A stretch of 64,000 nt of DNA from contig JBAIAA010000528.1 in the NCBI GenBank assembly GCA_037893245.1, positions 62,001 through 126,000 of the forward strand, read 5' to 3'. The DNA comes from Crossaster papposus. Its lineage: Eukaryota; Echinodermata; Asteroidea; Velatida; Solasteridae. This document shows positions 1,577-57,558 of this stretch, piece by piece. Each line of letters begins with the position of its first letter. The first letter of the stretch is position 1. A program made the translations under genes and the position numbers. The notes under the pieces were generated by a model. The model did no database searches. It had not been told where the DNA came from and saw nothing but the letters and a program-made list of their open reading frames with translations.

Positions 1577-4500
1577 CTGGTAGAAACAGTATTTGCAATT
1601 TCAAACTGCGTGTGGTCCTTGCTTGTTGGGTCATAGCGCATTTGACTTGGATCCCTGTCGACAAAAATAGAAAAGAAAGGCAATGAAAAGATACACAGAA
1701 GTAGAATTTCATTATGTTAAACCAACCGATTTCAATGGCACTGGGAAAGTATAATTTTGGTGCTTGTGCATTTGCCACTAAGTATGACGGAAACAGGAAT
1801 AGCAGAAACTGGGGTGAATTTCATGAGGCACTACCATCGATCGTATCTTACAAGGGATAACCCATCGTAAACCTGAGGATTTTTAGAAAGCGGTTTCAAA
1901 AAACGTACGATGGGTTGAACGTATCGGAAGTTCCATGGCAGCGCATTGCAAGTTACGATGAGTTATTGGGTCAACATAACTCGCATTCTCGACCAAAGTA
2001 AAAAAATTCAGCGAAGGCGCTCTAATGCTGCTTGTCGGTTTGGAGGCCAAACGAGTCCCAAGAAGAAAAAATAAATTTCCGAGACCGATTTAGGTTAATT
2101 ACTTTAAATAAGAGTTGAGTGCAACTGATGACTAATGTTTTCATTTCTGCAGAAAAGTTTACTGAGCGTGCAGATGACACACCTGTTAAACTTTCTTTCG
2201 ATTATTTTGTGTTATTTCACTGAGTACGCGTGACGTCCAACATCTTGATTTAAGTCTTGGCCAATTTAGGAAAATGTATTACACCCATAATAATAATGTT
2301 CGTTTTTTATATAGCGCTTTAGACTCCCACAGTGTGGGTTTATCAAAACGCTTTACAATTATTATCCCTGTTTACCAGGAACGAGACCATTTCTGCAGCA
2401 GCTCAAGATCAGCGCATGTGGTCTCTACCTTCACAGGTACCCATTTATACTCCTGGGTGGAGAGAGGCAATTGTAGCAAAGTGTCTTGCCCAAGAACACA
2501 AGCACCATGTTCCCTGCCAGGGTTCGAACCCACGTACCATCGTACAGGAGTCAAACACGGTAACCACTGGACCACAGTGCCCTACCCATGAATGTGCTTT
2601 TACAACAAACAACACGAAAACTGATTTAAACTTAAAAAAAACAAAAAACGTGCTGAGCAGAATATTGTTCTTAGCAATTTAGTAAGGACATTTCTCATGT
2701 CAGAGAGTGTTTCTCAAACTTGCGAATAAAGTGCAGCATTATTTGCCCTACATGTATTTTTGTTGTTCAGGCTGAATAAACATTGCTCAGTCTTAACACC
2801 TGAAGTCTGTGGTAGTCTTCTGCTCCAGGGTGAGAATAAACAATGCTGTCTTACCTGAAATTTATGATAGTCTTGTGGTACAGGCTGTGCACGGCTTGCC
2901 TTCCAACAATGCTTTCCAAGACAGACAGTGATTTCTGCTTTTCCGCTTTCAAATCCTGATCTTCATCACCAATAACATTGGCTTCACTGTCATCTGTATT
3001 CACATTCAACTCTCAACATTAAATTATCTGCTGAATAATTGTTTTAATGACCCGCCTTAACCAGTTTGCGCCGGGATTATTTTAACATCACCGAGCCGAC
3101 GCGCAGTATTATTTTTAACAAAACTTGATCCGAGGCGGGTTCAGGCTGATAGTACCAAGAAGCACAACCATGCATTCCCGGCCTTTCTAATGGGGTGTTT
3201 AAGCGCCATCTGTTTTGAATCTGGAGAAAACTTTGCGTTTATATACGTCATCCGGCGCAAACTGGTTAAAGTTAGTATCTACCATTTGCAAACATCCAAA
3301 AATTAAACTACTTAATTATTACAGTCATTTTGACTGGGTTTCTAGCCAATATACCCAAGAGGCTTAGGGTTACAATTTGAAGTACGGTACACTAAATATA
3401 ACATTATAAACACACATAAATGAACTAAACTGAAACAAAAGAAATACAGTTTTTACCGTCGTCTTCAATGAACTCTTCACCGAGCTTGAAGCGGCTGTCA
3501 GTTCCAATCCGATGTTGAAGTCTCAGCAACTGCCAGTGAGGAAAAAAGATTTCACTTTCAATTTAAATCCGGGTCGAAAAAATCTAAAAAGCAACAGCCT
3601 CGATACTAATTGTGACCTGTCACCACGAAATGAGAGTAAAGTCTGAAAATTGAAAATTGAGATATTGGTATTTTCAAATTCTTGAGAAAGAGAGCTTTCC
3701 AATGGTATATAACACTTGGGGGTTTTGCAATAAATATATTTTACAATGCTCACGAATGTATCATGGGTTTCACATTTCACATTTCACATTACACTTTAAA
3801 CATTCTAAACAAAACAAAAAAAAGATTGCAAAACAGGACAAGGTTCGGTTGAACATAGCAACGGCTATGTTCTAATCATTATTTCTTGAAACTTTCCACA
3901 CAAACGAACTATTGTATAAACAACAAAATAACAAAATTTTGAAAACGTGGGACAGTTACAAAGATCTAATTTGCATATTTAATTACCGTGTTAATAAGAC
4001 CACTGATGGACTTTAATCCAAACACTAACTACTCAAACACTGCGCAAAGTCGCGTAATTTAAGAGGTTTTCAATCATCTGAATGCACCCCCAAAATAGTA
4101 ATATGTAGAGTAGGACTTAGGCTTTCCAAATTACGCAAAATCTTAAAATTGACCACCCCTTCATATTTTGACTTTGGATGGCCATATCTACTAATCACAT
4201 TGTGCGACTTTACTCTCATATTGTGGTGACAGGTCACAATTATGCTCTTTGGTGAAGATAAATCTAGACACACTGACTAGTGAAGTCAAAAGTTACTGGT
4301 TACTGATCATTCACTGTTACTTGTAAATTGGACTCGTGTTTTGCTCATGACCAGACTAGTGATGGACTAGTGAAGCACTCGTCCACGACACGATCTCAAA
4401 GAATCTTCCAACTCCATCTGTGACTTTTTTCGTCCAAAACACTGCAAATCCCTAATTACCTGAAACTCATCAGCTATCTCTTATTACAAAAGTGGATATT

Positions 4501-11646: not shown

Positions 11647-12832
11647 CGTGAATGTTAGGTACCTATGAACCAAAATGTTAGGCCTGTACTTAGACTTCCT
11701 GGCACCAGTAAAGTATACATTCGGAGATTTGGAGTTTTGGACCCCTCTACCGGAGTACAGTATCCGTGTTGTATGAAACGGTTTTATCAACCAATTTCTC
11801 GTGTTTGAAATGCAACAGCACGTGGCAAATTGTAATTCAGATGGTCAATATATGCTCGTACGTGCGCGAGCCTAAAAAAAGGGCTGTAGATCAGCATGAC
11901 TTGCTTTTTAGGAGATTAATATTTGAGAAAGTAGAATTCTTGCCCTAGTAACAAAAGCATTCTCACGATCGGCATGACGTCACAAAGGGAAAAGCCGTCT
12001 ATAGCAATCGGACGGCGATCGCAACAAAAACAAGAACATAAGAATAACTGCCTGACGTCAGTTATAAACGAATGCTGTTTTTCTTGCTTTTTTTGGCATC
12101 CATGATTGTAAAACTTCGGAAAGGTCACGATATTTACTATAAAATACAACCCCAAAAATCCACCCATTTCTAAATTCATTTCAAGCAATTATTACCACAT
12201 GACCAAAAATGGTGTATACTACTTTTAAGTTTAATTCATACGGTTCACACATGGAGAAATAAGACACAGGGAGTTACAACGACCTTTGGATCAAACGTTT
12301 AGTCTTTGGTACCGCGGTCATAAAACAGCACGGGATAATTTACTGTAAACACCCCGCGGGCAATCTCGCGACCGCAGCCACACGAATTCTGGAAGATGTG
12401 CGCCGGCGCATATCGAAATAGTACGTAAGTTTCTAAAAAAGTTCAATTTTCTTATGCAAAAAAAAGAAAACGCAACACGTCGCACACCGTTGAGCGATAC
12501 ACGAATGGGTAGACAAAAGCCTCAACGAGCAAACCTTCCATTTCTGGCCGGCCAAACTCGGCCTTAAGTCGTCAAAATCATAAAAATATGCTACCATATT
12601 TCCATGATTGTACTGTTCATATTTTAATCTTCTCTGTACTTGTTCCAAGTATTTATTTTGGGAAGTGGAACGAAGCACCAAACTGGAAATGTTTTATAAA
12701 AATTAAGCGAGTTCTAGGGTATCCCTTGGCGGGATTTTGTTTGTTTTAGTTTGCATTTGTTCTCACTCTTCGGTTTCCCCCATAGATAAAAGATAACAAT
12801 GTGGGCGATAAACAAATCAACAACGTCATTTT
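11647..12832. other. Upstream region of NOL8, with a partial F2 element
   Basis: The probable NOL8 5' leader and promoter lie here, but I cannot identify a TATA box or a transcription start. A partial F2 element occupies about 11995-12228. The remainder, about 12230-12820, has no recognisable gene or repeat. AACGTCATTTT at 12822-12832 is the left target-site duplication of the retrotransposon that follows. Confidence 0.4.
11995..12228. mobile_element. Partial element, family F2
   Basis: Retains the right half of F2 (ACGGCGATCGC, CATCCATGATTGTAAAAC, GGTGTATACTACTTTTAA) and lacks the left end. It lies upstream of the NOL8 start codon. Confidence 0.65.
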
Positions 12833-15800
12833 TGGAGGAGAAGAAGACAGCCTCTACGTGGCCTCCTCTACTAGTAGCTGTTACAGCGAAACTAATGTCT
12901 TCACCCCGCTTCCAGCGACCTCAACGTCCGAGGCAGCACGAGTCCTTTTCAGGACGTGCGGACCTGTCCGCCGAAAGCCTCGCAATCCTGCAACTCAACG
13001 TCGAAGGGCTCACCATCGCCAAGCTCAATGTCCTTGAACAGACTGCAACAAAGAACAAGGCAACTATCGTCCTACTCCAGGAAACACATAAGAAGAACGA
13101 TGCCATCCTTAAGCTCCCCGGGTTCACGCTAGCCGGCCACACCAAGAGCAAGCATCACGGCCTGGCAACATTTGTCCAAGACGGCGTGTCCTGGTCACCG
13201 GTAGGCCAATGCGCTGATGATGCCGAAGTCGAATGGATCGCCACTAAGGTGCAGGAGACCACTGTGGTGAACGTCTACAAGCCACCACCGAGCCGACTAG
13301 ACCAAGGTTCTCTGCCAGACGTCCCTGCCCCAGCCTTATATGCCGGCGACTTCAACAGCCGGCACACTGACTGGGGGTACAAAACAACCAACGAAGACGG
13401 CGAGTCTCTGGCAGAATGGTCCTCCTCAGCCGATGCAGTCCTCCTCTTTGACCCAAAAGAACCCCATTCGTTCATCTCTGGGCGCTGGAACACTGAGACC
13501 AACCCAGACCTGGCTTTCGCCAAAGTCGCCGGGCAAGAACCACTGCCAATTCGGCGCATCCTGGACCTATTCCCTCGCTCACAACATCGCCCGTCACTAA
13601 TCACAACACCATCATTGATCCAACCGACAGAGGGAAAACCGGTCCGGAGATGGAACTTCCGCAAGGCGAACTGGGCAGACTTCACGCGAGATGTCAACAC
13701 CGCTGCTGAAGCCCTGCCAGTGCCTACTGCCTCCAACATCGACGACGCGTACGAGGCCTACTGCAAGGTGCTACAAGCCGCTGCCAAAAAACATGTCCCG
13801 CGGGGAATAAGAAAGAACTACGTCCCCTGCTGGGACGAAGAATGTGAAGCCCTCCTGTGTGCCCACAATGAAGCCAAGAGCAATGTCGAGAGGGCCACAG
13901 CCGCCACAGATCTCCTTACCCGGCTAAACAACAAACGGAGAGAGAGGTGGACAGAGACCGTCGAGTCAATCGACTTCACCCACTCCAGCCGTCGAGAGTG
14001 GCAGACCATCAACATGTTGATTGGCCAGCGAAACAAACAAAAACCATGCCCCATCACTGCAGATGCCATCGCAGCACAGCTCATCAGCAATGGCAGGTTC
14101 CCCAACGCAGACAAGGCCTTCTCCAGGAAGACCACAGACGAGGTGAATAACCTACGTAAGGCTCCGGGTGCCGACTCTAACCTTTCGGGAGACTTCACCA
14201 ATGACGAGATGGTTTCGGCTATCAAACATCTGAAGCCAAACAAAGCAGCCGAAATCGACAACATTCACCCAGAGTTTATCCTACACCAGGGCAGCAAAGC
14301 CACTGAGTGGCTAAGATCTTTCTGCTCTGCCTGCTACCGCTCCTCCAAGCTCCCGAAGATTTGGCGCCGTGCAAAGGTCATCGCCCTCCTGAAGCCGAAC
14401 AAGCAGAAGGACGACCCAAAGGGCTACCGGCCCATCGCTCTCCTGTGCGTCTCATACAAGATCCTGGAACGTCTCCTACATGCACGCCTCGACCCGGTGA
14501 TCGACCCATCACTGCCGAAGGAGCAAGCCGGCTTCCGCCGCGGGAAGTCCACAGCAGACCAAGTGACCCTCCTCACTCAGGACATCGAGGACTCCTTCCA
14601 GAAAGGCGAGAAGGTGGGCGTCGTCCTCCTTGATCTAACGGCGGCGTACGATACAGTCTGGCTCCGTGGACTCCACCTTAAGCTCCTGCAGACGATCCCG
14701 GACCGACACATGGTGGGCTTCATCATGGAGATGCTGAGCAACCGTAGCTTCACCCTCCACACCAGCGACGGCCAACACAGCAGGCTGAGAAGACTTAAGA
14801 ACGGTGTCCCCCAAGGTTCGGTACTAGCCCCGATGCTGTTTAACATCTACATCCACGATCTCCCAGACACTTTGTCGAGCAAGTATGGATACGCAGACGA
14901 CCTCGCAATCCTGTCTGCCGACAAGTGCTGGGAGACAATCGAATCGGGGCTCACGGCCGACATGACTACCCTGTCTTCGTACCTGCTGAACTGGCGTCTG
15001 AAGCTCTCCGTGGCCAAAACCATGTCCTCTGCATTCCATCTCAACAACAGAGAGGCAAGCCGCGAGCTCAACATCATCGTCAACAACAACAGACTCCAGT
15101 TCCAGGCCACTCCGACATACCTAGGGGTCAAGCTCGATCGCTCCTGGAAAATGTGTCAGCAAAGACATCAGCCCGCGTTGCCCTCTTACGACGGCTAGCT
15201 GGCACCACGTGGGGTGCATCGACCAAGACACTGCGCATCTCCACCCAAGCGCTGGTCTTCCCCGCCGCGGAGTACTGCACCCCTGTCTGGTGTAGGAGCA
15301 TCCACACCAAGAAGCTGGACTCTACACTCAACAGCGCCCTGCGCACGGTCTCCGGCTGTCTGCGTGCCACACCGGTCAACCAACTACCTATCCAACTACA
15401 CCATCCCTACGTCGAGAAGCCGCCGTCCTGGCACTGTCGCGTAAGGCCACCAATGACACCGACCATCTTCTTCACAAAACCGTTACAGAGACTCCACACC
15501 GCATCCGCCTAAAGTCACGACGTCCTTTTAAGAAGCATGCCCACCAGCTCCTGTGCTCCGCTCCACCCGACGCTTCCAAAAGGCTGTGGCTCAAACGGCG
15601 CTGGACAGAAGAGTGGCAAGCAGCAGACCATTCCAGGCTGCACCGTTTCGTGGAGGAGCCAGGCGAGCTGCTCGGCGAAGACCTGCCGCGCAAACAATGG
15701 ACGATGCTGAACCGCCTCAGAACCGGCGTAGGCCGCTTCGCCGCGACTATGAAAGGCTGGGAGCTCAGGGCCTCCGCCGTATGTGACTGTGGCCACCCAG

Positions 15801-16256: not shown

Positions 16257-16890
16257 TTAACCCTAACCCTACCTAATGCTACTTTTTACAACTAGTAGTA
16301 AAAATTAGTATGCAGTACTCTCACCGACTTGTGTGCAATGCCTGTAGTAATTTTTAGTATTTGGTACTTCACTATGGTGGCCCTGAAGGGACTACGCAGA
16401 TCGTGAATATTGACATCAATATTCACGACAAATTTCACGACTTTCCTTAAAGTCGCCAATATTGACGTCAAATTTAACGTCGATATTCGTGTCAAATTTC
16501 ACGACTTTCCCCGAAAGTCGCTAATATTGACGTCAATATTCGCGACAAAATTCATGACTTTCGTCAAAGTCGCGAATATTGACGTCAATATTGACGTCAA
16601 TATTCACGACTTTCCACACAAGTCGCGAATATTGACGTCAAATTTGACGTCAAATTTCGCGACTTGCCTCCAAAGCAATGGGTCAAGGCTGGACTACTGC
16701 ATTTTTTTGCCAGGTAAGTATTACTGACCTGTATTGCCACTATTAGTATTTTGTAGTTGGCAGTATCTGTACTCTGTCAGTACACACCCAATCATCAGTC
16801 ACGGAGAGACCCAGTGCTACAAAATACTAAGTAGTATTCTGTAGTACGCAGTTCTTTAGCCCAAAGTAAGGCCTAGGGGGTTAGGGTTAA
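16257..16890. mobile_element. TTAA-flanked element with CCCTAAC ends and six TGACGTCA sites
   Basis: TTAA at 16257-16260 and 16887-16890 frames 626 bp that start CCCTAACCCTACC and end GGGGGTTAGGG, matching the ends of the elements at 21940 and 57127. The interior, about 16400-16675, is a set of imperfect palindromic repeats built on AATATTGACGTCAA and CGACTTT/AAGTCG. Six exact TGACGTCA octamers lie at 16463, 16528, 16580, 16592, 16633 and 16645. No coding potential for a transposase. Likely a non-autonomous piggyBac-type element (inference from TTAA and the CCC start). Confidence 0.75.
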
Positions 16891-17612: not shown

Positions 17613-17810
17613 CTATCTCTCATCGCGGTCGGTGTGGTCCATCCTGTGGTTTTTCAGGTTGTAGCTGCGACTGAAAGATTTTCCACAGATGTCGCATGCG
17701 TACGGTTTCTTATTGGTGTGGGTCATCTGGTGTCGCTTGAGGTCTCCATTGTGCGTGAATGATTTTCCACAGATGTCGCATGTGTACGGTTTCTTATTGG
17801 TGTGGGTCAT
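17613..17810 (-). CDS. Terminal zinc-finger segment with natural C-terminus
   Basis: Two C2H2 fingers followed by HTDRDER and a stop. This ending occurs only here, so it is probably the true carboxy end of the ancestral protein. The helix residues SRSYNLKNH of the last finger are also unique in the array. It is separated from upstream fingers by the broken linker near 17890. Confidence 0.55.
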   Translation of the reverse strand: MTHTNKKPYTCDICGKSFTHNGDLKRHQMTHTNKKPYACDICGKSFSRSYNLKNHRMDHTDRDER

Positions 17811-19205
17811 CTGGTGTCGCTTGAGTGTTCCACTCCGATTGAACGATTGTCCACAGATGTCGCATGTGTCTGGTTTCTCATTGGTGTGGGTTTAATACCT
17901 GGTGTCGCTTGAGGTTTTTACTCCACGCAAACGATATGCTGCAGATGTCGCATGCGTACGGTTTATCAACAGTGTGGGTCATCTTGTGTCGCTTGAGGTC
18001 TCTATTCTGCCTGAACGATTATCCACAGATGTCACATGTGTATGGTTTCTCATTGGTGTACTCATCTGGTGTTTCTTGAAGTGTCCACTCTGCCTGAACG
18101 ATTTTCCACAGATGTCGCATGCGTACGGTTTCTTATTGGTGTGGGTCATCTGGTGTCGCTTGAGGTCTCCATTGTGCGTGAATGATTTTCCACAGATGTC
18201 GCATGTGTACGGTTTCTTATTGGTGTGGGTCATCTGGTGTCGCTTGAGTGTTCCACTCTGATTGAACGATTTTCTACAGATGTCGCATGTGTACGGTTTC
18301 TCATTGGAGTGGGTCATCTGGTGTTGCTTGAGGTGTCCACTCTGCCTGAACGATTTTTACAGATGTTGCATGCGTACGGTTTATCATTGGTGTGGGTCAA
18401 CTGGTGTCGCTTAAGGCATCCATTGTGCGTGAATGATTTTCCACAAATGTCGCATGCGTACGGTTTCTTATTGGTGTGTGTCATCTGGTGTCGCTTGAGG
18501 TCTCCATTGTTTTTGAATGATTTTCCACAGATGTCGCATGCGTATGGTTTCTCATTGGTGTGGGTCATCTGGTGTTGCTTGAGGCATCCATTGTGCGTGA
18601 ATGATTTTCCACAAATGTCGCATGCGTACGGTTTCTTATTGGTGTGTGTCATCTGGTGTCGCTTGAGGTCTCCATTGTTTTTGAATGATTTTCCACAGAT
18701 GTCGCATGCGTATGGTTTCTCATTGGTGTGGGTCATCTAGTGTCGCTTGAGGTTTCTACTCCACGCAAACGATATGCTGCAGATGTCGCATGCGTACGGT
18801 TTATCAACGGTGTGGGTCATCTTGTGTCGCTTGAGGTCTCCATTCTGCCTGAACGATTTTCCACAGATGTCGCATGCGTACGGTTTCTCATTGGTGTGGG
18901 TCATCTGGTGTCGTTTGAGGTCTCTATTGTGCGTGAATGATTTTCCACAGCTGTCGCATGTATACGGTTTCTTATTGGTGTGTGTCATCTGGTGTCGCTT
19001 GAGGTCTCCATTGTTTGTGAATGATTTTCCACAGATGTCGCATGTGTCTGGTTTCTCATTGGTGTGGGTCATCTGGTGTCGCTTGAGGTTTCTACTTCAC
19101 GCAAACGATATGCTGCAGATGTCGCATGCGTACTTTTTATCAACAGTGTGGGTCATCTTGTGTCGCTTGAGGTCTCCATTCTGCCTGAACAATTTTTCAC
19201 AGATG

Positions 19206-19487
19206 CCAGATCCATTTCTGCGGTAAAGGGCGACGATTTGGGCTTTGCCCTGCCTGGCGCAACTTTTTTACGCTGTTGCCTGTGTTGGTTACGTCCGCCA
19301 TTTTTATTTTATCTTATTTTGTGGGAATTTTTTGCTTAAGCAGACGATCTAAAATATTGCGCGCGCAGTTTGTTTACGTGCTTAAGTTAGCAACCGCTGG
19401 TGAAATACATTTACGCTTAAGCAAATTTTTCTGCTACAGTAAGCAACAAAATTTGCTTACCGTTAAGCATCTCTATGAAATTGGGCC
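19206..19487. mobile_element. 0.28-kb insert in the zinc-finger array, copy 1
   Basis: Interrupts a finger after ACAGATG. Its right end, GCATCTCTATGAAATTGGG, is the right end of family F3; inner CTTAAGC/GCTTAAG motifs are inverted. The same insert sits at the equivalent junction at 23751, 25934 and 27944, so it was copied with the array rather than inserted four times. Flanking finger text (AACAATTTTTCACAGATG and CTGGTGTCGCTTCAGG) is shared. Confidence 0.8.
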
Positions 19488-19607
19488 CTGGTGTCGCTTC
19501 AGGTTTCTACTCTACGCAAACGATATGCTGCAGATGTCGCATGCATACAGTTTATCAACAGTGTGGGTCATCTTGTGTCGCTTGAGGTCTCTATTCTGCC
19601 TGAACGA

Positions 19608-20495
19608 TTATCCACAGATGTCACATGTGTACGGTTTCTTATTGGTGTGGGTCATCTGGTGTCGCTTGAGTGTTCCACTCTGATTGAACGATTTTCCACA
19701 GATGTCGCATGCGTACGGTTTCTCATTGGTGTGGGTCATCGGGTGTTGCTTGAGGTGTCCACTCTGCCTGAACAATTTTCCACAGATGTCGCATGCGTAC
19801 GGTTTCTCATTGGTGTGGGTCATATGGTGTTGTTTGAGGTAGTCACTCCGCCTGAACAAAATTCCGCAGATGTCGCATGCGTACGGTTTCTCATTGGTGT
19901 GGGTCATTTGGTGTCGCTTGAAGTGTCCACTCTGCCTGAACGATTTTCCACAGATGTCGCATGTGTGCGGTTTTTCATTGGTGTGGGTCATCTGGTGTCG
20001 TTTGAGGTTTGTACTCCACGCAAACGATATGCTGCAGATGTCACATGCGTATGGTTTATCAACGGTGTGGGTCATCTTGTGTCGCTTGAGGTCTCTATTT
20101 TGCCAGAACGATTTTCCACAGATGTCGCATGAGTACGGTTTCTCATTGGTGTGGGTCATCTGGTGTCGTTTGAGGCATCCATTGTGGGTGAATGATTTTC
20201 CACAGATGTCGCATGCGTATGGTTTCTCATTGGTGTGGGTCATCTGGTGTCGTTTGAGGTTTCTACTCCACGCAAACGATATGCTGCAGATGTCGCATGT
20301 GTACGGTTTATCAACAGTGTGGGTCATCTTGTGTTGCTTGAGGCCTCCATTCTGCCTGAACGATTTTCCACAGATGTCGCATGTGTACGGTTTCTCATTG
20401 GTGTGGGTCATCTGGTGTTGCTTGAGGCTTCCATTGTGCGTGAATGATTTTCCACAGATGTCGCATGTATACGATTTCTTATTGGTGTGGGTCAT
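19608..20495 (-). CDS. Longest open zinc-finger run, ten complete fingers
   Basis: Ten consecutive C2H2 fingers with all Cys and His in place, then a truncated CDICG before TAA. Helix types in order: THNGS, RQNGG, AWSRN, THNGC, WQNRD, AWSTN, RQSGH, RRSDY, RQSGH, NQSGT. Upstream on the minus strand the run is cut off by the linker stop near 20576. It has no identifiable start exon, so it may not be translated. Confidence 0.55.
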   Translation of the reverse strand: MTHTNKKSYTCDICGKSFTHNGSLKQHQMTHTNEKPYTCDICGKSFRQNGGLKQHKMTHTVDKPYTCDICSISFAWSRNLKRHQMTHTNEKPYACDICGKSFTHNGCLKRHQMTHTNEKPYSCDICGKSFWQNRDLKRHKMTHTVDKPYACDICSISFAWSTNLKRHQMTHTNEKPHTCDICGKSFRQSGHFKRHQMTHTNEKPYACDICGILFRRSDYLKQHHMTHTNEKPYACDICGKLFRQSGHLKQHPMTHTNEKPYACDICGKSFNQSGTLKRHQMTHTNKKPYTCDICG

Positions 20496-21935
20496 CTGGT
20501 GTCGCTTGAGTGTTCCACTCCGATTGAACGATTGTCCACAGATGTCGCATGTGTCTGGTTTCTCATTGGTGTGGGTTTAATACCTGGTGTCGCTTGAGGT
20601 TTCTACTCCACGCAAACGATATGCTGCAGATGTCGCATGCGTACGGTTTATCAACAGTGTGGGTCATCTTGTGTCGCTTGAGGTCTCTATTCTGCCTGAA
20701 CGATTATCCACAGATGTCACATGTGTATGGTTTCTCATTGGTGTGGGTCATCTGGTGTTTCTTGAAGTGTCCACTCTGCCTGAACGATTTTCCACAGATG
20801 TCGCATGCGTACGGTTTCTTATTGGTGTGGGTCATCTGGTGTCGCTTGAGGTCTCCATTGTGCGTGAATGATTTTCCACAGATGTCGCATGTGTACGGTT
20901 TCTTATTGGTGTGGGTCATCTGGTGTCGCTTGAGTGTTCCACTCTGATTGAACGATTTTCTACAGATGTCGCATGTGTACGGTTTCTCATTGGAGTGGGT
21001 CATCTGGTGTTGCTTGAGGTGTCCACTCTGCCTGAACGATTTTTACAGATGTTGCATGCGTACGGTTTATCATTGGTGTGGGTCATCTGGTGTTTCTTTA
21101 AGTGTCTACTCTGCCTGAATGATTTTCAACAGATGTCGCATGCGCACGTTTTCTCATTGGTGTGGGTCAACTGGTGTCGCTTAGGCATCCATTGTGCGTG
21201 AATGATTTTCCACAAATGTCGCATGCGTACGGTTTCTTATTGGTGTGTGTCATCTGGTGTCGCTTGAGGTCTCCATTGTTTTTGAATGATTTTCCACAGA
21301 TGTCGCATGCGTATGGTTTCTCATTGGTGTGGGTCATCTGGTGTTGCTTGAGGCATCCATTGTGCGTGAATGATTTTCCACAAATGTCGCATGCGTACGG
21401 TTTCTTATTGGTGTGTGTCATCTGGTGTCGCTTGAGGTCTCCATTGTTTTTGAATGATTTTCCACAGATGTCGCATGCGTATGGTTTCTCATTGGTGTGG
21501 GTCATCTAGTGTCGCTTGAGGTTTCTACTTCACGCAAACGATATGCTGCAGATGTCGCATGCGTACGGTTTATCAACGGTGTGGGTCATCTTGTGTCGCT
21601 TGAGGTCTCCATTCTGCCTGAACGATTTTCCACAGATGTCGCATGCGTACGGTTTCTCATTGGTGTGGGTCATCTGGTGTCGCTTGAGGCATCCATTGTG
21701 CGTGAATGATTTTCCACAAATGTCGCATGCGTACGGTTTCTTATTGGTGTGTGTCATCTGGTGTCGCTTGAGGTCTCCATTGTTTTTGAATGATTTTCCA
21801 CAGATGTCGCATGCGTATGGTTTCTCATTGGTGTGGGTCATCTGGTGTTGCTTGAGGCATCCATTGTGCGTGAATGATTTTCCACAAATGTCGCATGCGT
21901 ACGGTTTCTTATTGGTGTGTGTCATCTGGTGTCGC

Positions 21936-22371
21936 TTAACCCTAACCCTCCCAAATCCTCCAAATTCCTCATTGCAAAATGCAGGATTTTGCAGGATTGA
22001 GGTCACTTGGAGTTTGATGCATTGCAGGATTTTGCAGGATTGAGGTTACTTGGGGTTTTACCCCTGCAGGAATATGGAGGATTCAGGTTATCAGGCTGAA
22101 TGTGACACACAAGGATTTTGCAGGATTGAGGTCACTTGGAGTTTGATGCATCGCAGGATTTTGCAGGATTGAGGTTACTTGGGTTTTTACTGACTGCAGC
22201 CAGGGCAAGACTGCAGGATTTTGCAGGATACAGGCTGTATGGTCGCCAGTGACCAATATTGGAGGATTTTGCAGGATTCAGGTTACTTGGAGTTTTAACA
22301 ATTTAGGAATTGGAGGATTTTGCAGGATTCAGGTTATGTGTAAGTAAAAATGGGTAGGGAGTTAGGGTTAA
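21936..22371. mobile_element. 428-bp TTAA element inserted in the zinc-finger array, empty site preserved elsewhere
   Basis: TTAA at 21936-21939 and 22368-22371 frames 428 bp starting CCCTAACCCTCCC and ending GGGAGTTAGGG. The interior repeats GCAGGATTTTGCAGGATT many times. The array reads GTGTCGCTTAAGGTCTCC without the insert at 23204-23218 and 25387-25401, with the same flanking fingers, so the insertion duplicated exactly TTAA. Most fingers have CTTGAGG at this place; the target TTAA exists only in copies with a G-to-A change. A second 428-bp copy is at 57123. Confidence 0.92.
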
Positions 22372-23750
22372 GGTCTCCATTGTTTTTGAATGATTTTCCA
22401 CAGATGTCGCATGCGTATGGTTTCTCATTGGTGTGGGTCATCTAGTGTCGCTTGAGGTTTCTACTCCACGCAAACGATATGCTGCAGATGTCGCATGCGT
22501 ACGGTTTATCAACGGTGTGGGTCATCTTGTGTCGCTTGAGGTCTCCATTCTGCCTGAATGATTTTCCACAGATGTCGCATGCGTACGGTTTCTCATTGGT
22601 GTGGGTCATCTGGTGTCGTTTGAGGTCTCTATTGTGCGTGAATGATTTTCCACAGCTGTCGCATGTATACGGTTTCTTATTGGTGTGTGTCATCTGGTGT
22701 CGCTTGAGGTCTCCATTGTTTGTGAATGATTTTCCACAGATGTCGCATGTGTCTGGTTTCTCATTGGTGTGGGTCATCTGGTGTCGCTTGAGGTTTCTAC
22801 TTCACGCAAACGATATGCTGCAGATGTCGCATGCGTACTTTTTATCAACAGTGTGGGTCATCTTGTGTCGCTTGAGGTCTCCATTCTGCCTGAACGATTT
22901 TCCACAGATGTCGCATGCGTACGGTTTCTCATTGGTGTGGGTCATCTGGTGTCGCTTGAGGCATCCATTGTGCGTGAATGATTTTCCACAAATGTCGCAT
23001 GCGTACGGTTTCTTATTGGTGTGTGTCATCTGGTGTCGCTTGAGGTCTCCATTGTTTTTGAATGATTTTCCACAGATGTCGCATGCGTATGGTTTCTCAT
23101 TGGTGTGGGTCATCTGGTGTTGCTTGAGGCATCCATTGTGCGTGAATGATTTTCCACAAATGTCGCATGCGTACGGTTTCTTATTGGTGTGTGTCATCTG
23201 GTGTCGCTTAAGGTCTCCATTGTTTTTGAATGATTTTCCACAGATGTCGCATGCGTATGGTTTCTCATTGGTGTGGGTCATCTAGTGTCGCTTGAGGTTT
23301 CTACTCCACGCAAACGATATGCTGCAGATGTCGCATGCGTACGGTTTATCAACGGTGTGGGTCATCTTGTGTCGCTTGAGGTCTCCATTCTGCCTGAATG
23401 ATTTTCCACAGATGTCGCATGCGTACGGTTTCTCATTGGTGTGGGTCATCTGGTGTCGTTTGAGGTCTCTATTGTGCGTGAATGATTTTCCACAGCTGTC
23501 GCATGTATACGGTTTCTTATTGGTGTGTGTCATCTGGTGTCGCTTGAGGTCTCCATTGTTTGTGAATGATTTTCCACAGATGTCGCATGTGTCTGGTTTC
23601 TCATTGGTGTGGGTCATCTGGTGTCGCTTGAGGTTTCTACTTCACGCAAACGATATGCTGCAGATGTCGCATGCGTACTTTTTATCAACAGTGTGGGTCA
23701 TCTTGTGTCGCTTGAGGTCTCCATTCTGCCTGAACAATTTTTCACAGATG

Positions 23751-24032
23751 CCAGATCCATTTCTGCGGTAAAGGGCGACGATTTGGGCTTTGCCCTGCCT
23801 GGCGCAACTTTTTTACGCTGTTGCCTGTGTTGGTTACGTCCGCCATTTTTATTTTATTTTATTTTGGGGGAATTTTTTGCTTAAGCAGACGATCTAAAAT
23901 ATTGCGCGCGCAGTTTGTTTACGTGCTTAAGTTAGCAACCGCTGGTGAAATACGTTTACGCTTAAGCAAATTTTTCTGCTACAGTAAGCAACAAAATTTG
24001 CTTACCGTTAAGCATCTCTATGAAATTGGGCC
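23751..24032. mobile_element. 0.28-kb insert in the zinc-finger array, copy 2
   Basis: Same insert and same junction bases as at 19206, 282 bp long. It differs from the first copy at only a few positions. Confidence 0.8.
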
Positions 24033-25933
24033 CTGGTGTCGCTTCAGGTTTCTACTCTACGCAAACGATATGCTGCAGATGTCGCATGCATACAGTTTAT
24101 CAACAGTGTGGGTCATCTTGTGTCGCTTGAGGTCTCTATTTTGCCTGAACGATTTTCCACAGATGTCGCATGAGTACAGTTTCTCATTGGTGTGGGTCAT
24201 CTGGTGTCGTTTGAGACATCCATTGTGGGTGAATGATTTTCCACAGATGTCGCATGCGTATGGTTTCTCATTGGTGTGGGTCATCTGGTGTCGTTTGAGG
24301 TTTCTACTCCACGCAAACGATATGCTGCAGATGTCGCATGTGTACGGTTTATCAACAGTGTGGGTCATCTTGTGTTGCTTGAGGCCTCCATTCTGCCTGA
24401 ACGATTTTCCACAGATGTCGCATGTGTACGGTTTCTCATTGGTGTGGGTCATCTGGTGTTGCTTGAGGCTTCCATTGTGCGTGAATGATTTTCCACAGAT
24501 GTCGCATGTATACGATTTCTTATTGGTGTGGGTCATCTGGTGTCGCTTGAGTGTTCCACTCCGATTGAACGATTGTCCACAGATGTCGCATGTGTCTGGT
24601 TTCTCATTGGTGTGGGTTTAATACCTGGTGTCGCTTGAGGTTTCTACTCCACGCAAACGATATGCTGCAGATGTCGCATGCGTACGGTTTATCAACAGTG
24701 TGGGTCATCTTGTGTCGCTTGAGGTCTCTATTCTGCCTGAACGATTATCCACAGATGTCACATGTGTATGGTTTCTCATTGGTGTGGGTCATCTGGTGTT
24801 GCTTGAGGCATCCATTGTGCGTGAATGATTTTCCACAAATGTCGCATGCGTACGGTTTCTTATTGGTGTGTGTCATCTGGTGTCGCTTGAGGTCTCCATT
24901 GTTTTTGAATGATTTTCCACAGATGTCGCATGCGTATGGTTTCTCATTGGTGTGGGTCATCTAGTGTCGCTTGAGGTTTCTACTTCACGCAAACGATATG
25001 CTGCAGATGTCGCATGCGTACGGTTTATCAACGGTGTGGGTCATCTTGTGTCGCTTGAGGTCTCCATTCTGCCTGAACGATTTTCCACAGATGTCGCATG
25101 CGTACGGTTTCTCATTGGTGTGGGTCATCTGGTGTCGCTTGAGGCATCCATTGTGCGTGAATGATTTTCCACAAATGTCGCATGCGTACGGTTTCTTATT
25201 GGTGTGTGTCATCTGGTGTCGCTTGAGGTCTCCATTGTTTTTGAATGATTTTCCACAGATGTCGCATGCGTATGGTTTCTCATTGGTGTGGGTCATCTGG
25301 TGTTGCTTGAGGCATCCATTGTGCGTGAATGATTTTCCACAAATGTCGCATGCGTACGGTTTCTTATTGGTGTGTGTCATCTGGTGTCGCTTAAGGTCTC
25401 CATTGTTTTTGAATGATTTTCCACAGATGTCGCATGCGTATGGTTTCTCATTGGTGTGGGTCATCTAGTGTCGCTTGAGGTTTCTACTCCACGCAAACGA
25501 TATGCTGCAGATGTCGCATGCGTACGGTTTATCAACGGTGTGGGTCATCTTGTGTCGCTTGAGGTCTCCATTCTGCCTGAATGATTTTCCACAGATGTCG
25601 CATGCGTACGGTTTCTCATTGGTGTGGGTCATCTGGTGTCGTTTGAGGTCTCTATTGTGCGTGAATGATTTTCCACAGCTGTCGCATGTATACGGTTTCT
25701 TATTGGTGTGTGTCATCTGGTGTCGCTTGAGGTCTCCATTGTTTGTGAATGATTTTCCACAGATGTCGCATGTGTCTGGTTTCTCATTGGTGTGGGTCAT
25801 CTGGTGTCGCTTGAGGTTTCTACTTCACGCAAACGATATGCTGCAGATGTCGCATGCGTACTTTTTATCAACAGTGTGGGTCATCTTGTGTCGCTTGAGG
25901 TCTCCATTCTGCCTGAACAATTTTTCACAGATG

Positions 25934-26215
25934 CCAGATCCATTTCTGCGGTAAAGGGCGACGATTTGGGCTTTGCCCTGCCTGGCGCAACTTTTTTACG
26001 CTGTTGCCTGTGTTGGTTACGTCCGCCATTTTTATTTTATTTTATTTTGGGGGAATTTTTTGCTTAAGCAGACGATCTAAAATATTGCGCGCGCAGTTTG
26101 TTTACGTGCTTAAGTTAGCAACCGCTGGTGAAATACGTTTACGCTTAAGCAAATTTTTCTGCTACAGTAAGCAAAAAAATTTGCTTACCGTTAAGCATCT
26201 CTATGAAATTGGGCC
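25934..26215. mobile_element. 0.28-kb insert in the zinc-finger array, copy 3
   Basis: 282 bp, nearly identical to the 23751 copy (GCAAAAAAATTTG here against GCAACAAAATTTG there). It lies 2183 bp from that copy, giving the length of one duplicated block. Confidence 0.8.
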
Positions 26216-27943
26216 CTGGTGTCGCTTCAGGTTTCTACTCTACGCAAACGATATGCTGCAGATGTCGCATGCATACAGTTTATCAACAGTGTGGGTCATC
26301 TTGTGTCGCTTGAGGTCTCTATTCTGCCTGAACGATTATCCACAGATGTCACATGTGTATGGTTTCTCATTGGTGTGGGTCATCTGGTGTTTCTTGAAGT
26401 GTCCACTCTGCCTGAACGATTTTCCACAGATGTCGCATGCGTACGGTTTCTTATTGGTGTGGGTCATCTGGTGTCGCTTGAGGTCTCCATTGTGCGTGAA
26501 TGATTTTCCACAGATGTCGCATGTGTACGGTTTCTTATTGGTGTGGGTCATCTGGTGTCGCTTGAGTGTTCCACTCTGATTGAACGATTTTCTACAGATG
26601 TCGCATGTGTACGGTTTCTCATTGGAGTGGGTCATCTGGTGTTGCTTGAGGTGTCCACTCTGCCTGAACGATTTTTACAGATGTTGCATGCGTACGGTTT
26701 ATCATTGGTGTGGGTCATCTGGTGTTTCTTTAAGTGTCTACTCTGCCTGAATGATTTTCAACAGATGTCGCATGCGCACGTTTTCTCATTGGTGTGGGTC
26801 AACTGGTGTCGCTTAAGGCATCCATTGTGCGTGAATGATTTTCCACAAATGTCGCATGCGTACGGTTTCTTATTGGTGTGTGTCATCTGGTGTCGCTTGA
26901 GGTCTCCATTGTTTTTGAATGATTTTCCACAGATGTCGCATGCGTATGGTTTCTCATTGGTGTGGGTCATTTGGTGTTGCTTGAGGCATCCATTGTGCGT
27001 GAATGATTTTCCACAAATGTCGCATGCGTACGGTTTCTTATTGGTGTGTGTCATCTGGTGTCGCTTGAGGTCTCCATTGTTTTTGAATGATTTTCCACAG
27101 ATGTCGCATGCGTATGGTTTCTCATTGGTGTGGGTCATCTAGTGTCGCTTGAGGTTTCTACTCCACGCAAACGATATGCTGCAGATGTCGCATGCGTACG
27201 GTTTATCAACGGTGTGGGTCATCTTGTGTCGCTTGAGGTCTCCATTCTGCCTGAACGATTTTCCACAGATGTCGCATGCGTACGGTTTCTCATTGGTGTG
27301 GGTCATCTGGTGTCGCTTGAGGCATCCATTGTGCGTGAATGATTTTCCACAAATGTCGCATGCGTACGGTTTCTTATTGGTGTGTGTCATCTGGTGTCGC
27401 TTGAGGTCTCCATTGTTTTTGAATGATTTTCCACAGATGTCGCATGCGTATGGTTTCTCATTGGTGTGGGTCATCTAGTGTCGCTTGAGGTTTCTACTCC
27501 ACGCAAACGATATGCTGCAGATGTCGCATGCGTACGGTTTATCAACGGTGTGGGTCATCTTGTGTCGCTTGAGGTCTCCATTCTGCCTGAATGATTTTCC
27601 ACAGATGTCGCATGCGTACGGTTTCTCATTGGTGTGGGTCATCTGGTGTCGTTTGAGGTCTCTATTGTGCGTGAATGATTTTCCACAGCTGTCGCATGTA
27701 TACGGTTTCTTATTGGTGTGTGTCATCTGGTGTCGCTTGAGGTCTCCATTGTTTGTGAATGATTTTCCACAGATGTCGCATGTGTCTGGTTTCTCATTGG
27801 TGTGGGTCATCTGGTGTCGCTTGAGGTTTCTACTTCACGCAAACGATATGCTGCAGATGTCGCATGCGTACTTTTTATCAACAGTGTGGGTCATCTTGTG
27901 TCGCTTGAGGTCTCCATTCTGCCTGAACAATTTTTCACAGATG

Positions 27944-28217
27944 CCAGATCCATTTCTGCGGTAAAGGGCGACGATTTTTTTAAAGGGCGCAACTTTTTTA
28001 CGCTGTTGCCTGTGTTGGTTACGTCCGCCATTTTTATTTTATCTAATTTTGGGGGAATTTTTTGCTTAAGCAGACGATCTAAAATATTGCCCGCGCAGTT
28101 TGTTTACGTGCTTAAGTTAGCAACCGCTGGTGAAATACGTTTACGCTTAAGCAAATTTTTCTGCTACAGTAAGCAAAAAAATTTGCTTACCGTTAAGCAT
28201 CTCTATGAAATTGGGCC
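27944..28217. mobile_element. 0.28-kb insert in the zinc-finger array, copy 4
   Basis: 274 bp; carries a replacement near its left end (TTTTTTTAAAGGGCG instead of the TTTGGGCTTTGCCC text of the other copies). It is 2010 bp from copy 3. Confidence 0.8.
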
Positions 28218-28337
28218 CTGGTGTCGCTTCAGGTTTCTACTCTACGCAAACGATATGCTGCAGATGTCGCATGCATACAGTTTATCAACAGTGTGGGTCA
28301 TCTTGTGTCGCTTGAGGTCTCTATTCTGCCTGAACGA

Positions 28338-29165
28338 TTATCCACAGATGTCACATGTGTACGGTTTCTTATTGGTGTGGGTCATCTGGTGTCGCTTGAG
28401 TGTTCCACTCTGATTGAACGATTTTCCACAGATGTCGCATGCGTACGGTTTCTCATTGGTGTGGGTCATCTGGTGTTGCTTGAGGTGTCCACTCTGCCTG
28501 AACAATTTTCCACAGATGTCGCATGCGTACGGTTTCTCATTGGTGTGGGTCATATGGTGTTGTTTGAGGTAGTCACTCCGCCTGAACAAAATTCCGCAGA
28601 TGTCGCATGCGTACGGTTTCTCATTGGTGTGGGTCATCTGGTGTCGCTTGAAGTGTCCACTCGGCCTGAATGATTTTCCGCAGATGTCGCATGTGTACGG
28701 TTTCTCATTGGTGTGGGTCATTTGGTGTCGCTTGAAGTGTCCACTCTGCCTGAACGATTTTCCACAGATGTCGCATGTGTGCGGTTTCTCATTGGTGTGG
28801 GTCATCTGGTGTCGTTTGAGGTTTCTACTCCACGCAAACGATATGCTGCAGATGTCGCATGTGTACGGTTTATCAACAGTGTGGGTCATCTTGTGTTGCT
28901 TGAGGCCTCCATTCTGCCTGAACGATTTTCCACAGATGTCACATGCGTACGGTTTCTCATTGGTGTGGGTCATCTGGTGTTGCTTGAAGTTTCCACTCTG
29001 CCTGAACGATTTTTCACAGATGTCGCATGTGTACGGTTTCTCATTGGTGTGGGTCATCTGGTGTTGCTTGAGGCTTCCATTGTGCGTGAATGATTTTCCA
29101 CAGATGTCGCATGCGTACAGTTTCTCATTGGTGTGGGTCATCTGGTGTAATTTGAGGCTGTCCAT
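28338..29165 (-). CDS. Upstream-most zinc-finger run, nine complete fingers
   Basis: Open for 275 codons. It begins just after a possible splice acceptor (minus strand ATACAAG before GTTATGGACAGCC), so the fingers could be the last exon of a gene whose 5' exons lie upstream. It contains a partial finger, nine complete fingers and a truncated tenth ending at TAA. The finger helices are the least repetitive in the array (THNGS, RQSGN, RQNGG, AWSRN, RQSGH, RPSGH, RRSDY, RQSGH, NQSGT). This is the best candidate for a still functional part. Confidence 0.6.
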   Translation of the reverse strand: MDSLKLHQMTHTNEKLYACDICGKSFTHNGSLKQHQMTHTNEKPYTCDICEKSFRQSGNFKQHQMTHTNEKPYACDICGKSFRQNGGLKQHKMTHTVDKPYTCDICSISFAWSRNLKRHQMTHTNEKPHTCDICGKSFRQSGHFKRHQMTHTNEKPYTCDICGKSFRPSGHFKRHQMTHTNEKPYACDICGILFRRSDYLKQHHMTHTNEKPYACDICGKLFRQSGHLKQHQMTHTNEKPYACDICGKSFNQSGTLKRHQMTHTNKKPYTCDICG

Positions 29166-44000: not shown

Positions 44001-47000
44001 ATACCTAGTTTTTGTGGTAGGCTGCACCTCCGGTCTCGTGGCGGTCGTTGAGTCAAGCTCTCTTGCCGTTGTTGTTGCTGCTGCTGCTGCTGCTGCTGTG
44101 ATGGATGCTTCTGTTGCTATAGCAGGAGCAGAAATTGGAAGGGCATAGTCGGCATCTATGTTTGCTTTCCACTCGTGTTTCCTTCTGTTTATAGAGTGAT
44201 CCCTGCAAATAAGCCAAAGATAAAAGAACATTTATTAAGTCTGTTCCGTAGAGCTTATGCATAGCGGCTATCTTAGAGGGCATATTGTGTACAATGAATG
44301 CACAGCAAGTTTCATGACATGGAAAGGCATTGCCTTCTAAGATGGCGGCTACGCATATAGTCTATTCTTATAAGGTGCATCAGGCCTGGAGTGACATGGT
44401 TTGGAGCATTGAATTTGTGATCTGCGGGTAAATCCAAGTACATTAACCCTAACCCTCCAGGGTATATTGGCTAGACACCCTCAGAGTTGGGAGGTCCAAT
44501 TCCCTCAGAGTCTCTGGTCACCCAAAGCAGCAGAATCCATCTCTGGCATTGTTCAGTGGGATTAGCTCTCAAAAGTCTTTGGTCGTTTACCTGATGCACT
44601 GTGCTGCGTCTGGCAGGTTTAGGGTTAAAGGTAGGATACACAATTTGCAGATATCAAAAATATTTACTACCTAATTATTAAGAAATATCTTACTCATTTA
44701 AAAGTAAATAATGATTTTAGGCATCCAGAGAAATGATTGCGCTAGATATCCTGTAATTATTCCGGAAAATATAGTTTTATAAAGAAAAATTCGCGATAAT
44801 AACTATATTTTTTTAAACTATATTATAAAACTATATTTTAACAAAGATAACATAAGAATAACTGCTCGGCGCCAGTCGAAAACAAACGCTGTTTTTCGAG
44901 CTTTTCTCAGCATCCATGATTTAAAAACTTTTGACAGGTCAGTTAAACGATATTTACTATAAAATACAACCCCCCAAATCTACCCATTCATGATAATTCA
45001 AGCAATTACCAATGGTGTGTCCTACCTTTAAAGAATAATTTTGTAATTATACAAAAATGATTCACAACAAGAATTATATTAGTAATTGGTTGAATATGAA
45101 GTAAAACCAAAGGTATCTTAGTCTTGAGTGCCTACTCTGGTAGTCTGATTCCACGTCCCATGTACAGCTCCTGAGCATTCTCTGGCAAGACCATATGCCG
45201 AAGAGTGTCTGCTTCTGACTTATAGTCAAACCTAGGAGGGAAAAATGTGTGCAAAGATAAAAAGAAAACTTCTAAATATAAAGAGAAACACTCACCCAAA
45301 CAAAACAAACAAAACACACATATGTGACCGGCTCTACAATAAAGGGTATTAAGTCTCGCTGTGCACTATCATGTAATGGACTACTCAACGTTGAGAGGAT
45401 AAACATTTCATCAAAATATGATTTACATTTGTTGCCACTAATGACATCTTTTAACACCAATATTTTCAGGTTTCATTCAAAAAAATGTTGATTTTGATGA
45501 TTAAAGTGGAAAACACGGTTATTTTGTGTTCATTGTTCTGTTGTTCTACAACAAAGCCGGCTTTTTCAAAGCCTGTTTTCTCAGTTGTGTAATTTGAACT
45601 CCAAGGAAGTAATCATAAGCAAACATGTCATATCTCCAAAACGGGAGTAGCTATGGAGCTCTATTATATACCAACTGGAAGCTTACGCTGTGGGCTTTCC
45701 AACCATTGATATAACTCAATTTCACTATTTTGTGACATAATACCAATTATTGTGGAGTGGGTCACATATTCCCAATCTGTCATTTCAGTCCAATAAACAC
45801 TATCATACTCTATACAAGTTGTCAAAACAAATTATTGATATGCTTTCCACACATTAACCAGTTCGCGCCGAATGACGTATATATACTCGCAAAGTTTTTC
45901 CAAGGAAATAAATGGATGACGCATAAACACGTCACAAGCAATGCCGAAAATGTCTGTCAGCAGCGTGCAAGGCCGGAAATGCATGGGTGTGCTTCTCAGT
46001 AATATCGGCCTAAACACGCTTTAGGATCGAGTTTTGTTTTAAAAAAAATAATCACGCGCCTAAGCTCGGTAAATGTTACAATAATCCCAGCGCGAAAGGG
46101 TTAAAATTAATTTTTAACCAGTTCGTGCCAGGATTATTTTAACATCACCAATTATTTTTAACGAAACTCGATCTAAAGCGTGTTCAGGCCGATAGTGCCA
46201 GGAAGCACGCCCACGCATTTCCGGCCTTGCTCGCTGCTGACAGACGTTTCTGTCCTTGCTCGTGGCGTGTTTATGCGTCATCCGTTTTGAATCTGGGGAA
46301 AACTTTGAGTTTTTATACGTCATCCGGCGCGAACTGGTTAAAATAATAACTGGGGGCTAAAATTACGACCGGTCTTTATTTTATAATGTATACCGTTAAA
46401 CGCCGCTATACCAAACATCCGACTATACTGAACACCATCCTTGGCTCCTGAATTTTGGTGTACAAAAATAACACTTTTGTGGACAAAAATGTCAATAGAT
46501 TCACAAAATCCACCGTCCTTGGCTCCCGATTGTTGTGTTCAAACATACCAAAGATTGTTGTTGAAAGTAGTTCAAATGCTATACCGAACGATCGATATAC
46601 CAAACAAAATCTGTAGATCCTGTGATGTTCGTTATAGCGGTATTATGTTGTATTAACACTTTAATATTATGAAATCTACAAAGTACAGGAACAAAAAAAA
46701 GGAAGAATGCCATTTCTCGACAAGGATATATATTTGATGGGTTTTTTTTCCCTTACTTCTGGGCAATATTTGGTGTGTTTCCTCCCACGTAGAGATCGTT
46801 GTAACCCTGACGATGTGATGGGACGCCATGTTTCCTCTTCTGACCTCTGACCTCTCGCAAATTATCTTCCTCTTCTAGAAATCGCGAGGGAAGACTCGTA
46901 GTTCTGACATTCAGATTTAAGAAGACAATAAAAAACATTTGAATGTTCCCCCTGTTTTTGTTTTTTTCATCTAAAAAAAAAGATTTTTGGAAAGAATGTA

Positions 47001-57122: not shown

Positions 57123-57558
57123 TTAACCCTAACTCCCTACCCATTTTTACTTACACATAACCTGAATCCTGCAAAATCCTCCAATTCCTAAATTGTTAAA
57201 ACTCCAAGTAACCTGAATCCTGCAAAATCCTCCAATATTGGTCACTGGTGACCATACAGCCTGTATCCTGCAAAATCCTGCAGTCTTGCCCTGGCTGCAG
57301 TCAGTAAAAACCCAAGTAACCTCAATCCTGCAAAATCCTGCGATGCATCAAACTCCAAGTGACCTCAATCCTGCAAAATCCTTGTGTGTCACATTCAGCC
57401 TGATAACCTGAATCCTCCATATTCCTGCAGGGGTAAAACCCCAAGTAACCTCAATCCTGCAAAATCCTGCAATGCATCAAACTCCAAGTGACCTCAATCC
57501 TGCAAAATCCTGCATTTTGCAATGAGGAATTTGGAGGATTTGGGAGGGTTAGGGTTAA
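57123..57558. mobile_element. 428-bp TTAA element, second copy, inverted
   Basis: TTAA at 57123-57126 and 57555-57558 frames exactly 428 bp, the reverse complement of the element at 21940-22367. Only a few differences were seen on reading (for example ACC at 57251 against GCC at 22245). It lies about 270 bp before DNAJC2 exon 2. Confidence 0.9.

Follow-up and report, generated by a model that had tools for sequence, protein, structure and literature searches.

A 436-bp element that lies in a C2H2 zinc-finger array of Crossaster papposus is, judged from its sequence, very probably a non-autonomous piggyBac-type MITE moved in trans by a piggyBac-family transposase. It is found in a stretch of 64,000 nucleotides (hereafter the window), together with two sister segments of the array in which the same target site is empty. 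The initial annotation had described a TTAA-framed element of 428 bp at this place, and both its coordinates and its length are correct. The features discussed below are compiled in Table 1.

Table 1 Positions of the element, its sister sites and related stretches, and ends of piggyBac families of the same genome (positions refer to the window unless a locus is named)
Feature	Position	Strand	Remarks
MITE including both TTAA copies	21936..22371	+	436 bp
Left TTAA, target-site duplication	21936..21939	.	
Right TTAA, target-site duplication	22368..22371	.	
Left end CCCTAACCCTCCCAAATCC	21940..21958	+	
Right end, inward reading CCCTAACTCCCTACCC	22352..22367	-	
Internal direct repeats AGGATTTTGCAGGAT	21983..22328	+	
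Host C2H2 zinc-finger array	17672..29148	-	84-bp period
Empty sister, single TTAA	23208..23211	.	
Empty sister, single TTAA	25391..25394	.	
TTGA sister	18663..18666	.	99.0% alike over 604 bp
Second full-length copy, TTAA on both sides, other flanks	57123..57558	-	435/436 identical
186-bp TTAA-framed relict, CCCTAACCCTCC end	44443..44628	.	
90-bp TTAA-framed element, ends CCCTAACTCCCT on both sides	L080 107-196; L081 50-139; L082 44-133		
62-bp stretch	L079 59-120	reverse complement	
68-bp stretch	L077 70-137		
Ends of 505- and 542-aa families			CCCTTTCANTNCCA
Ends of 503-aa family			CCCTATCAAYCCCAAGA
Ends of 572-aa family			CCACTTGGCGCC and CCATTTCGCGCC
Ends of 475-aa family			CCAGTTCGCGCCGG, 14/14 inverted
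Ends of 628-aa family			CCCTTTGCATGC and CCCTTAGCACGC
Ends of 669-aa family			CACTTTGACTGC

The insert between the outer TTAA copies is 428 bp long. Both ends of the element read CCCTAAC, which agrees with the terminal motif CC[C/T]T of piggyBac elements, and the terminal inverted repeat is perfect over 7 bp and imperfect further in. Next to the TTAA, the left end consists of two telomere-type repeats, (TAACCC)2T. The motif AGGATTTTGCAGGAT was found seven times in one orientation and not at all in the other (at most one mismatch allowed), partly spaced at a period of 43 bp. Each of the three minus frames contains stops, and a stop-to-stop frame of 130 aa lying wholly inside the element is lacking. 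It shows the characteristics by which MITEs are recognised: a size below 500 bp that is homogeneous (436 bp in 40/40 scored copies, which were the best-scoring ones), the lack of an evident coding region, and dispersal at high copy number (372 exact left ends, differing flanks).

For comparison with the sister sites, the insert and one TTAA were removed from the filled site and the flanks were then aligned. The sister at 25391 agrees with the joined filled site over 1,153 bp without a mismatch (625 bp on the left and 528 bp on the right including the TTAA). For the sister at 23208, the stretch without mismatch is 885 bp in length (357 bp on the left and again 528 bp on the right including the TTAA). 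Each of the two sisters has one TTAA and no insert. The flanks of filled and empty sites are identical rather than differing, as the initial annotation had proposed. The closest sister without a TTAA, located at 18663, is identical to the joined filled site at 598 of 604 positions, with the G of its TTGA being one of the six differences; the sister at 27401 likewise has TTGA. Filled, empty and target-less sister sites are all located within 7 kb.

In a census of 113 array units, which were located by a fuzzy anchor, 89 units were found to have TTGAGG, four TTAAGG, one (the filled site) TTAACC and 19 other sequences. This is in line with the earlier claim that a G-to-A change created the target in only some of the units. 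By direct reading, the change is silent in the finger frame (CTC to CTT, Leu). The four TTAAGG units are those at 18411, 23208, 25391 and 26813. Two of them, at 18411 and 26813, belong to a second unit type, in which CTTAAGG stands in another context with CATCC next to it, so TTAA at this codon has more than one origin or was spread by conversion. In the simplest order of events, the G-to-A change would have created the TTAA, the segment would then have been copied and one of the copies hit.

The insert splits a Leu-Lys codon pair, breaking the finger after GDL in the minus frame, and brings in a stop 12 codons past that Leu. An earlier stop, 24 codons before the Leu in the same frame, is present in both the filled copy and the 25391 segment. 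Since the frame already had this stop upstream of the insertion, the cost to the host was probably small, if indeed this stretch yields any protein. In-frame TAG stops (RH*MT) were observed in the finger frame on the minus strand at 21700-22800 and 24880-25830, in the filled and in the empty segment. Since these stops are common to both, this part of the array looks to have decayed before the insertion. The finger array is also interrupted by about 285 bp of non-finger sequence containing several CTTAAG palindromes, which was read at 23745-24030 and 25928-26215. Judged from the same TTAA contexts, further copies of it are probably present near 19200-19480 and 27945-28260 (approximate positions).

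The genome of the species (1.02 Gb, 1841 contigs) was searched for further copies, as the initial annotation had suggested. The search yielded 2062 first-look candidates, the best 40 of which were scored. All 40 are of full length and all 40 are framed by TTAA. Since the second window copy and the 40/40 genome copies (the window's own included) are TTAA-framed, chance is excluded as an explanation of the framing. In 39 of the 40 cases the copies have one and the same sequence, which is also that of the second window copy, and the copy at 21936 differs from them only in a private base at position 310; as these are the best-scoring copies, their identity is partly a matter of selection. A less biased measure is the exact 67-bp left end, which occurs 372 times in the genome, with no occurrence of the reversed control. 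Contigs C5 to C174 harbour 86 exact left ends, and 39 copies located there agree in all 436 bp. Within the set of 40 genome loci, flanks are common only to L018 and L038, and L027 and L028 share 94 bp at different offsets. The element is young and part of a recent burst. No match to the element was obtained in the phage collection and none to a 33-base end pattern in viral contigs.

When the flanks of the 40 copies, joined across the insert, were compared with all loci retrieved, two more pairs of filled and empty sites emerged. Locus L013 is filled, and a related repeat with which L062 and L063 begin has a single TTAA (97.6% identity over 330 columns); L062 and L063 are counted as one case since they are alike and 6.1 kb apart on one contig. 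The next repeat unit in L062/L063 has the same left flank and the same TTAA, followed by a piggyBac with an open frame of 572 aa. The same TTAA of this repeat is therefore found empty, filled by the MITE or filled by the 572-aa piggyBac. In the second pair, L026 is filled and L053 is empty (87.4% over 135 columns). A genome search with the joined flank of L018 yielded an uninterrupted exact match of all 304 bases at 24 of 40 scored places. Locus L038 closely resembles L018 (99.3% identity over 604 columns) and both are filled; the right junction reads TTAA in L018 and TTAATTAA in L038, a difference of four bases. Together, the local empty sisters, the three further comparisons and the TTAA framing of 41/41 copies support the earlier claim of a transposition that duplicated exactly TTAA.

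The target context was analysed for 40 sites (L038 omitted, second window copy included) and compared with a background that is rough, since it was taken from the 325 TTAA sites of the window, each read in both directions. The strongest deviation was observed at position -2, where C is present in 24/40 sites compared to 112/650 in the background (p 7e-9). Weaker signals were obtained for T at -3 (21/40 compared to 232/650), T at +1 (20/40 compared to 169/650), G at +2 (16/40 compared to 112/650) and A at +3 (23/40 compared to 232/650). Their p values of 0.0009 to 0.03 refer to the best of four bases per position and are uncorrected, such that only position -2 is strong. The preferred target looks like the palindrome TCNTTAANGA.

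A piggyBac-family transposase from elsewhere in the genome would bind the ends of the MITE, excise it and insert it at a TTAA opened with a 4-base stagger, and this staggered joining would double the TTAA. piggyBac elements can also excise without a scar, thereby restoring the TTAA; an empty sister alone is therefore no proof of a site that was never filled. The element could accordingly be older than the copying of the segment and have been lost later from two sisters by scarless excision, the products of which would look alike. In favour of such a history, the longest-agreeing pair among the three segments changes along their length, as it does after recombination. Nevertheless, it requires more events than a single late insertion, the flanks of filled and empty sites are identical, and the filled copy departs from its family at no more than one base. 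Empty relatives exist for other copies too, 24 identical ones for one of them. We regard later loss as quite unlikely. The dating of the insertion within the evolution of the array, as given in the initial annotation, is retained as the simplest order, to which the loss from two sisters is the weaker alternative.

Assignment of the inserted MITE to the piggyBac superfamily, at first an assumption drawn from the TTAA target, is strengthened by the CCCT termini, by the many piggyBac genes of the genome and by the use of the same TTAA by both in the L013/L062 repeat. PMC2872659 describes TTAA duplication and termini of the form CC[C/T]T as hallmarks of piggyBac and gives a length of about 12-19 bp for the terminal inverted repeats. 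According to PMC10813416, many piggyBac ends start with CCC; the motifs named there are CACTA, CCCTC, CCCTT and CCCAT, not CCCTA, and a small number of piggyBac elements are listed whose duplication is not TTAA. The perfect inverted repeat of only 7 bp and the CCCTA start, which is absent from those motifs, are points against our reading. A further one is the ATAA found beside one end of the 503-aa piggyBac family, whose ends are the most similar to those of the MITE.

TTAA duplication is common to piggyBac and Kolobok (PMC6004289), which raises the possibility of a Kolobok element moved by a Kolobok transposase. As stated in the same source, Kolobok ends begin with two purines, and the ten full-length Xenopus elements tabulated begin with AG. 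Kolobok and its T2-MITEs thus share the TTAA duplication with the element described here but differ from it in their AG/RR termini (PMC6004289). In contrast, both ends of the present element begin with CCC, and piggyBac genes abound in the genome, which makes a Kolobok origin very improbable.

Target duplications of TA or TAA are produced by Tc1/mariner or Harbinger elements, and at a single palindromic TTAA site the products of TA and TTAA duplication are indistinguishable. A shorter true duplication with a coincidental TTAA is refuted in practice by the 41 copies examined, since the outer T and A are kept on both sides in 41/41, which is unexpected for a TA target. An origin by array recombination or an assembly join without any transposition, for which the highly repetitive nature of the array might speak, is refuted by the dispersed copies: the same 436 bp, with one base different, is present at 40 other places examined, with hardly any flanks in common.

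Among the closest parallels to the piggyBac-type MITE found here are the CMITEs of Acropora corals, likewise piggyBac-type MITEs. As described in PMC2872659, these share the TTAA duplication, CC-rich termini, lack of coding capacity, small size and presence in many copies. A filled/empty allele pair was also described for CMITEs, and piggyBac transposases are present in the same genome (PMC2872659). CMITEs are about 100 bp long, end with CCCTTT or CCCCTC and have a core that is conserved between families, whereas the element of C. papposus has 436 bp, CCCTAAC ends and 43-bp internal repeats.

A search of the genome for PF13843 yielded 1336 first-look candidates, of which the best 116 were scored; 116/116 were over the cut-off and an internal stop was found in four of them. 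Six representatives of different length were tested and all turned out to be PF13843. The 542-aa representative matches the solved transposases of piggyBat (6e-59) and piggyBac (8.5e-29). Ends were settled for seven families (503, 505, 542, 572, 475, 628 and 669 aa) and start with CCC, CCA or CAC. All of them adjoin TTAA except for one end of the 503-aa family, which is preceded by ATAA in both loci read (L072, about position 1009, and L073, about position 4343). In the 505-aa family, both ends are present in 12 of 15 loci.

These families share the TTAA target and C-rich ends with the MITE, but encode PF13843 transposases and have ends unlike CCCTAACCCTCCC. The most similar start is CCCTATCAAYCCC of the 503-aa family, which is near to CCCTAACCCTCCC of the MITE without being equal to it. 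A transposase-bearing element with the ends CCCTAACCCTCCC and CCCTAACTCCCTA was not found among the best 116 of the 1336 PF13843 candidates and the ends of the seven families. Of the two things that the initial annotation suggested looking for, the genome search delivered the additional copies but not the same-ended piggyBac. No matched end pair was detected in the stretches examined around frames of 560 aa (L042), 763 aa (L041), 597 aa (L086), 512 aa (L087) and 572 aa (L088, from C114). In the vicinity of 14 additional zf-Tnp_2 matches, seven loci showed C-rich right ends (L093 ends at its contig edge). Ends of the form CCCTAAC[C/T]C[C/T] were not found near these 14 matches, two right ends of which read CCCTAAAGTGCCC and CCTAAAGTGCCC.

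Some piggyBac genes are repeated in tandem at regular intervals, the unit length being about 8.6, 11 to 11.7 or 12.1 kb (L072, L107 and the G000 contigs C863, C669, C80, C1419, C33 and C1081). In the C1419 array, 8.7 kb (L107) contain one piggyBac frame and no other stop-to-stop frame above 124 aa; this is a satellite-like array that carried the transposon along. An rDNA origin of the tandem arrays found no support, as no Rfam match was obtained in the loci tested, including L107. A piggyBac zinc-finger match was also observed within an open frame of 2193 aa (G000:C974:33918-34067), the usual length being 542 aa.

In the search for an autonomous partner, patterns of the left and right ends matched at 19, 1051 and 87 places when the known element was excluded. 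One short relative with similar ends is a TTAA-framed element of 90 bp with TTAACCCTAACTCCCT at both ends and different flanks in three loci; its end accounts for most of those listed among the 1051 matches. Two single TTAA-framed stretches of 62 and 68 bp carry a left end like that of the 436-bp element, their right ends (CCCTAGGG and CCCCAACTCCC) being looser. The 186-bp stretch of the window has diverged relatives in the genome, and many matches end no more than a few bases from its edges. CCCTAA beside TTAA at one end at least is common to the 436-, 90-, 186-, 62- and 68-bp elements and stretches. In the 436-bp and 90-bp elements, the old 186-bp family and the single 62- and 68-bp stretches, the end pattern extends to CCCTAAC[C/T]C[C/T] at one end or more. 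It is conceivable, albeit unlikely, that one transposase recognises telomere-like ends so economically that 60-90 bp, barely two ends, can move. No piggyBac-like frame was seen by eye in 11 pattern-derived loci (L076-L082, L103-L106), and a literature search for the motif TNNTTAANNA together with piggyBac did not yield any results.

The recurring CCCTAACTCCCCGGG form was rejected as a transposon end because both sides of its TTAA are alike (three loci read). A TTAA-framed stretch of 634 bp at 16257-16890 with TTAACCCTAACCC ends resembled a further member of the family but is not counted as one. In the 40 candidates scored, repetition is confined to its interior (about 16373-16675), and the stretch may therefore be a nested insertion. 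The window additionally contains a LINE-type retrotransposon with an open frame of 802 aa featuring endonuclease and reverse transcriptase domains (12790-15198).

Taken together, the locus illustrates with unusual clarity a process that is already known rather than a new one. The phenomenon of piggyBac-type miniature transposons is itself well known. It provides a clean natural record of TTAA transposition, with filled, empty and target-less sites found together. The recent burst to which it points took place in a genome with many open piggyBac genes, which offers the chance to pinpoint the active transposase and the short-ended elements that it serves.
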